From a virus: 31,758 bases of DNA. This document shows positions 31,347-31,758 of the stretch, piece after piece; position 1 is the stretch's first letter; every line of letters begins with the position of its first letter. A model generated the notes under the pieces. It was given only the letters and a program-made list of their open reading frames with translations. It was not told the origin of the DNA and did not search any database. The DNA lies in IMG/VR virus record IMGVR_UViG_3300042465_002709, positions 1-31,758 of that record. The stretch is one strand, 5' to 3'. The position numbers were made by a program, and so were the translations under genes.

Positions 31347-31423
31347 AAAAAGCTATCGTCAAAAGGTGCGTGGAAACCCTTATCAGATAGCTTTTTTAAT
31401 AATGTCTTATGAAGTTTCCACGC
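31347..31423 (-). ncRNA. 5'-leader RNA with predicted H-type pseudoknot
   Basis: Two perfect inverted repeats interleave on the minus strand in the order A-B-A'-B'. A is GCGTGGAAAC (31423-31414), pairing with GTTTCCACGC (31377-31368), 10 bp. B is AAAAAGCTATC (31396-31386), pairing with GATAGCTTTTT (31357-31347), 11 bp. Loops are 17 nt (between A and B), 8 nt (B to A') and 10 nt (A' to B'), which are long enough for both stems to form together as a pseudoknot. The predicted P1 start site lies just before A, so the structure fills the leader up to 15 nt before the HNH start codon. Alternative: two competing hairpins. Confidence 0.6.
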
Positions 31424-31432
31424 TTCGATATG

Positions 31433-31462
31433 CAAATATACTTATTTTTTTTATTTATCAAA
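31433..31462 (-). promoter_or_regulatory. Promoter P1 (rightmost, reads HNH-primase-helicase)
   Basis: Minus strand: TTTG (31459-31462), 18-bp spacer of A-rich sequence, TATATTTG (31433-31440). This fits the Bacteroidota consensus TAnnTTTG. Transcription would start near 31426-31428, at the first stem of the leader structure. Unlike P2 and P3 it lacks the ATTAAT palindrome, so it is probably used first, by the unmodified host polymerase. Confidence 0.62.
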
Positions 31463-31487
31463 CATTTTTTTTATTTTTTTTTTTATC

Positions 31488-31600
31488 GGTTACAGGTTAC
31501 AGATGGTTACACGAAGTTACAGATGTTTTTTCGCAATCTGTAACCGCTCAACCCCCTAGTGTTTACTGGTATTTATATAAAGGTTACAATATAGGTTACA
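31488..31600. repeat. GGTTACA repeat cluster, part 1 (candidate origin/operator)
   Basis: GGTTACA occurs at 31488, 31495 (directly adjacent), 31505, 31582 and 31594; AGTTACA at 31515; TGTAACC (inverted) at 31539. GTTACAGAT (31516-31524) and ATCTGTAAC (31536-31544) make a perfect 9-bp inverted repeat. The region is noncoding and flanked by poly-A/T tracts. With the copies at 76-143 across the join it looks like an iteron array of an origin, or a set of repressor sites just upstream of P1. The remaining sequence between 31332 and 31631 shows no ORF. Confidence 0.6.
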
Positions 31601-31631
31601 CTTAATATATAAATATACTTAACTACTTTAT

Positions 31632-31758
31632 TTTTTTTTTGTTTGATTAAACTTTATTTTTTTTTATTCTAGAAGTTTTGAAAAAGTTAAAAAAATGGTG
31701 GTCTTCTGTAACCGCTTTGTAACTATTTGATAATCATATCGTTTTCGGTTACACGTTT
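31632..31758. repeat. Terminal overlap, copy 2 (circular assembly)
   Basis: Exact copy of bases 1-127; see the first entry. When the contig is closed, this segment should be counted once, and the noncoding region then runs from 31332 through the join to 192. Confidence 0.9.

Follow-up and report, generated by a model that had tools for sequence, protein, structure and literature searches.

A four-helix leader RNA with complementary hairpin loops ahead of replication and mobile genes in Bacteroidota phages: a candidate conditional terminator

The HNH-VirE locus and the anatomy of its leader

The window (the whole stretch of DNA that was analysed, 31,758 nucleotides) is an IMG/VR phage record whose genes lie on the minus strand. 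An HNH endonuclease gene is followed by a gene for a VirE-type primase, after which comes a helicase gene (Table 1). In agreement with the preliminary description, a Bacteroidota-type promoter (TTTG-N18-TATATTTG) directly precedes two interleaved perfect inverted repeats of 10 and 11 bp, and 15 nt separate this element from the HNH start codon (31331). That description gave no strand; the leader RNA reads on the minus strand, as part of the mRNA of the HNH endonuclease and the VirE primase. The promoter consensus is established knowledge on Bacteroidota sigma factors, and a TAnnTTTG box was likewise observed upstream of the homologous leaders. Upstream of the promoter, at positions 31483-31758 of the window, copies of GGTTACAG/TCTGTAACC cluster in both direct and inverted orientation and are possibly an origin or operator array. 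Similar GTTACAGAT copies sit between VirE and helicase in relatives L009-L041.

The two repeats had been considered too long and too perfect to have arisen readily by chance, and this view was upheld. With a strict scan for two interleaved perfect stems of at least 8 bp, 609,801 bases of related loci yielded essentially only the window site and the homologous sites ahead of VirE, apart from one or two hits attributable to chance. An automatic three-helix finder picked up 22 of the 28 real leaders, compared with 9 of 5,600 dinucleotide shuffles.

Table 1. Positions of the genes, promoter and leader elements in the window, listed in the direction of transcription.
Feature	Start	End	Strand	Remarks
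Promoter, Bacteroidota type	31433	31462	-	TTTG 31462-31459, 18 nt, TATATTTG 31440-31433; read directly
Hairpin H1 (helix S0), GAAG-CGTGGAAA-CTTC	31411	31426	-	Loop 31422-31415; 3'-flank swap test
Kissing strand A, CGTGGAAA, H1 loop	31415	31422	-	The 10-nt arm of the preliminary description (31414-31423) takes in the H1 closing pair
Linker L1, A/U-rich, ATAAGACATTATTA	31397	31410	-	A/U-rich in all leaders
H2 stem S2, 5' arm AAAAAGCTATC	31386	31396	-	Inverted repeat and covariation
H2 inner stem S3, 5' arm AAGG	31378	31381	-	Third helix inside S2; covariation
Kissing strand A', GTTTCCACGC, H2 apical loop	31368	31377	-	Inverted repeat and covariation
H2 inner stem S3, 3' arm CCTT	31363	31366	-	Third helix inside S2; covariation
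H2 stem S2, 3' arm GATAGCTTTTT, ends in U-run (terminator-like)	31347	31357	-	U-run count; host terminator matches of the nested-stem model
A/T-rich spacer up to start codon	31332	31346	-	Read directly
HNH endonuclease (NUMOD4 + HNH_3)	30792	31331	-	First gene after the leader; member of the leader-HNH cassette
VirE-type primase (BT4734-like_N, PriCT_2, VapE-like)	28709	30799	-	Directly behind the leader in relatives without HNH

Both repeats are parts of a four-helix leader RNA. The 11-bp repeat forms the stem (S2) of the second hairpin, H2, within which nests a third helix (S3) with the 3' arm of the 10-bp repeat in its loop. Across the leaders, the H1 loop measures 6-9 nt and the H2 apical loop, perfectly complementary to it, 8-11 nt. 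In 23 of 30 leaders the 3' kissing arm directly abuts S3, and in 25 of 30 the arm is preceded by 1-3 nt. The H2 stem gives way to its U-run 6-23 nt ahead of the start codon. Predicted energies ranged from -10 to -28 kcal/mol for H2 alone and from about -5 to -16 for the loop-loop duplex, while that of H1 was marginal where the hairpin is present. An S0 score of at least 8 was reached by 21 of 26 non-redundant leaders; with the 3' flanks exchanged among leaders, the number averaged 6.0 and never exceeded 14. H1 was weak or missing in five of the 26. The hairpin was weak or missing in the large freshwater group L009-L027 and in L230, L237 and L065:8407. In ten of the leaders aligned by their stems, S3 is flanked by a loop-E-like AGTA/GAA pair. 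The linker carries an additional small A/T-rich hairpin after the common motif AATTAAGATATT in L315 (37494-37595, FCL-2) and L318 (1375-1492, PD482P1).

The preliminary description had read the two repeats as an H-type pseudoknot. Its two interleaved stems stand, both with compensatory changes; a free 5' arm does not, since this arm lies within a hairpin loop in 21 of 26 leaders. Because the 5' arm sits in the S0 loop and the 3' arm in the loop of the third helix, the 10-bp repeat is, judging from sequence, best read as mostly a kissing-loop helix including the H1 closing pair, rather than as the pairing of a free strand with a loop. The leaders accordingly present two hairpins with complementary, covarying loops, with the reservation made above for H1 in 5 of 26.

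Relatives of the leader and exchange with the HNH gene

The VirE search returned 61 loci, to which an alignment-based search added more, including one bacterial-genome contig. Directly upstream of VirE, nearly all relatives above approximately 55% identity had a promoter with the TAnnTTTG box, two complementary segments that interleave and a spacer rich in A/T; the stem sequences showed no similarity from one group of relatives to another. The element was absent upstream of more distant VirE genes situated inside operons. One relative, L008 (599-2686), has a single in-frame stop codon within the VirE reading frame, and one phage group (L010, L011, L019, L024, L025, L027 and L031) contains a long alternating GTGTGTGCGTGTGTG tract between VirE and the following helicase gene.

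The leader was not restricted to VirE. It was found ahead of HNH genes (L065, L093, L242 and Flavobacterium phage mumin9-1), a helicase gene (L060), a helicase-primase operon in mumin9-1 with a Toprim primase counterpart in hemulen6-1, a Toprim primase-helicase operon (L499), an O-like initiator gene in Polaribacter phage P12002L, an O-like initiator together with a DnaB-like gene (L065 and F. columnare phage FCL-2), and a KilA-N-like gene (L390, family read by eye). In mumin9-1, a replication-protein operon with an SSB gene lies behind HNH. Parabacteroides phage PD482P1 has a leader at a putative replication gene, which extends the element to gut Bacteroidales. The mumin9-1 and FCL-2 leaders are located in NC_048837 (12690-12830) and NC_027125 (37475-37600), respectively. 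The leader-bearing phages are thus metagenomic as well as cultured phages of Flavobacterium, Polaribacter and Parabacteroides, a range defined by the members retrieved with models lacking the kissing helix or with fixed DNA words. A direct DNA pattern for the window stem gave mostly chance matches, L093 excepted. Cellulophaga phi46:1, Riemerella PT33, Acinetobacter WCHABP12 and faecal contig MT836526 yielded no leader at their replication genes, nor did the matched region of Riemerella RAP44. The record OQ791282, named Shigella phage Henu10, gives the same match positions in Riemerella phages as PT15 does, and its host label may be wrong.

We also considered a host origin. In 399 Flavobacteriales genomes, the nested-stem model R1, which has no kissing helix and may let weak copies escape, detected no further full element besides that of the phage-like contig L265; as its matches were otherwise plain intrinsic terminators, this origin was rejected.

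Comparison of the window with L002 revealed a natural leader swap. The two are 98% identical up to position 31433, at the promoter box, and again from VirE onward, and between these points the window has a different leader and, in addition, the HNH gene. Over the leader and the HNH start, 84% of this block agrees with L093, and HNH protein identity is 42%. Since the window is nearly identical to L002 on both sides while the block in between resembles L093, the HNH gene seems, from these alignments, to travel with its own leader and to have replaced a resident leader of unrelated sequence and the same fold. The segment 30792-31433 behaves as an exchange cassette with break points at the promoter box and the VirE start, because of which the leader DNA may be a homing site.

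Covariation, coding strand and known RNA families

The preliminary description had proposed to look for compensatory changes in both stems of homologous leaders, whose absence was to count against a structured element. Homologous leaders covaried strongly in both stems, and compensatory changes were present in all three main helices. In a gap-free alignment of 11 leaders, 98.7% of cells were paired, a percentage that is partly a product of laying out the leaders by their stems; fairer tests are provided by swaps, shuffles and the G-U/A-C ratio. The same alignment contained 87 double-changed cells, compared with 25.5 in shuffles and 9-25 with slid partners. Among 30 non-redundant leaders, double-changed cells exceeded expectation in S1 (124 vs 32.9), S2 (131 vs 34.8) and S3 (39 vs 10.4), and 29 different kissing sequences occurred. 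Related phages display coupled changes of the kissing helix, with GTGGAACG/CGTTCCAC in mumin9-1 and GTGAGACG/CGTCTCAC in hemulen6-1. A first MAFFT alignment of all leaders put the helices out of register and was left out.

Internal non-Watson-Crick pairs consisted of 30 G-U, 1 A-C and 1 other, a bias (30 vs 1) indicating an RNA of the sense strand. An RNA from the plus strand would also fold well and was rejected, the genes, the promoter and the G-U bias all pointing to the minus strand. Comparative evidence of this kind establishes that the leader RNA is of the sense strand, has four helices and two mutually complementary loops, and lies between a promoter and replication or mobile genes. By the same evidence it is the fold and not the sequence that is read, since wholly different loop sequences occupy the same place.

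These results bear out the earlier proposal of a structured 5' leader, as opposed to an ordinary one, ahead of the replication operon. The proposal had also held that no described family fits and had suggested a search of Rfam; at gathering and relaxed thresholds, no Rfam 15 family matched, including riboswitch models, and we found no description of such a leader in the literature. Ribozyme and known riboswitch folds (pistol, HDV, SAM-II) were rejected, as their helix order is not known to match that of the leader. A type III toxin-antitoxin RNA was dismissed as well, because it needs tandem pseudoknot repeats upstream of an endoRNase toxin whereas a single element with replication or HNH DNA endonuclease genes downstream is present here. 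HMP2_4078, a candidate RNA of Bacteroidetes of approximately 109 bp that lies near D5_N and integrase domains and is described as palindromic (PMC8040213), shares with the leader the Bacteroidetes and a phage replication context. Its description mentions neither a kissing loop nor a leader. Compared by description, the two could overlap. A fold that is kept while its letters change almost completely points, on sequence grounds, to a so far undescribed RNA control element, and a terminator-like hairpin that loop-loop pairing would gate is an architecture that Rfam 15 does not hold.

Candidate functions and comparison with known systems

The preliminary description had treated the 11-bp stem as part of a structured leader RNA. 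This part stands, and the picture can be extended, as the stem followed by a U-run looks like an intrinsic terminator. In 28 leaders, T made up 147 of the 168 letters at +1 to +6 past the last stem G/C and was back at background level by +12, so that a U-run directly follows a GC-rich stem; the window's own U-run is short (TTTTTGCATT). The best host matches of the nested-stem model were of this plain terminator type. A standard terminator scan of the window, L239 and L233 called H2 in none of the three, because the loop region is too large.

We propose that transcription would start just upstream of H1, which would display its 6-9 nt loop and be followed by the A/U-rich linker and by H2 with its outer (S2) and inner (S3) stems, including in one subset of leaders a loop-E-like AGUA/GAA internal loop. 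The H2 apical loop would then pair with the H1 loop, and the U-run would close H2 ahead of the start codon. H2 may act as an intrinsic terminator (attenuator) that limits replication-gene expression, and the H1-H2 kissing contact may set how frequently the polymerase reads through, with a phage or host factor possibly stabilizing or blocking this contact. On balance we favor, with a probability of roughly 0.55, a conserved cis-acting leader RNA of Bacteroidota phages in which H2 would be a conditional terminator of early replication genes and the kissing contact its control. A wider proposal is more tentative, and we would put it at somewhat less than even: phages across the phylum Bacteroidota would share a class of RNA switches whose intrinsic terminator is gated by a kissing loop within the same RNA, giving otherwise unrelated replication modules a common control that homing endonucleases carry along as a ready-made regulatory cassette.

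By analogy, the main rival to conditional termination would be translational control in the manner of T4 gp32, with a phage protein (e.g., single-strand DNA binding protein or primase) binding the folded leader and spreading over the A/U-rich start region. Several features are consistent with such an operator: the leader lies directly upstream of the start codon, combines a fold with an A/U-rich single-stranded spacer and heads replication-protein operons, that of mumin9-1 having SSB behind HNH. The T4 gene 32 operator, with its 5' pseudoknot, unstructured UUAAA/UAAA part and adjoining homing endonuclease gene segG, is a precedent (PMC535899). However, the genes behind the leader are unrelated and come from unrelated modules, HNH and KilA-N-like genes among them, which does not fit a first gene whose product simply controls its own expression; a conserved U-run would be left unexplained and the gap between stem and AUG is just 6-23 nt or so. 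We regard translational control as unlikely. Autoregulation by VirE alone was rejected, as the leader also precedes many other genes.

It is improbable that the leader mainly gives rise to a stable small RNA of about 80-90 nt, in which case most transcripts would end at the U-run, the kissing-loop RNA would act in trans or as a decoy, and read-through would give the downstream mRNA. Its own promoter, compact fold and 3'-terminal U-run agree with this idea, yet a free RNA has no need to lie always 6-23 nt from a start codon, and the loop sequences vary between phages and even between the two leaders of one phage. We give an equally low weight to a structure without regulation that protects the early mRNA against 5'-end-dependent decay or leaves the start region accessible. 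Such a generic device would be expected ahead of many unrelated genes and H1 does lie near the predicted transcription start, but a single stable hairpin would suffice for it, and neither the perfect loop-loop complementarity nor the U-run would be explained. A DNA element (cruciform, replication origin or recombination target of the HNH nuclease) is very improbable despite the nearby TCTGTAACC arrays and the cassette break points at the leader, given sense-strand G-U in 30 of 31 G-U/A-C internal mismatches, the fixed order of promoter, leader and start codon, and the leaders that lie far from VirE and have no repeat arrays.

The timing of replication-gene expression in Bacteroidota phages is little understood, and the leader represents a concrete, recurring RNA device. 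This device could be tested at once, as it occurs in phages that have been cultured (Flavobacterium phages mumin, hemulen and FCL-2, Polaribacter phage P12002L, Parabacteroides phage PD482P1), and the leaders already supply natural compensatory mutants as well as a leader-swap experiment performed by the HNH gene.

Among known systems, the T4 gene 32 operator contains a 5' pseudoknot and UUAAA repeats, with a fold that was kept while the sequence diverged between T4 and RB69, and it resembles the leader in being a folded 5' leader on a phage replication-protein mRNA, near an A/U-rich start region and with a homing endonuclease gene nearby (PMC535899). It differs in being a single pseudoknot of approximately 28 nt bound by the product of the same gene, whereas the leader described here has four helices, loop-loop pairing, a terminator-like end and many unrelated genes behind it. 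Instead of the gene of its own binding protein, the genes that follow are those for HNH, VirE, helicase, O-like and KilA-N-like proteins. Attenuators based on intrinsic terminators likewise place a GC-rich hairpin and a U-run between promoter and gene; the leader stands apart through an apical loop of 8-11 nt that pairs perfectly in sequence with a loop further upstream, and has neither a leader peptide nor a known ligand. Cobalamin riboswitches use a regulatory kissing loop (L5-L13), and in them, too, the expression-platform hairpin is contacted at its loop by another loop lying upstream. They have a large ligand-binding core, which the leader lacks, and no riboswitch model matched it. Loop-loop pairing also controls plasmid replication, as in ColE1 RNAI/RNAII and the IncB/ColIb repZ pseudoknot, where kissing loops govern a replication gene or primer. 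In those plasmids the pairing partners are, at least in part, an antisense RNA and its target, whereas the phage leader holds both loops in one RNA.
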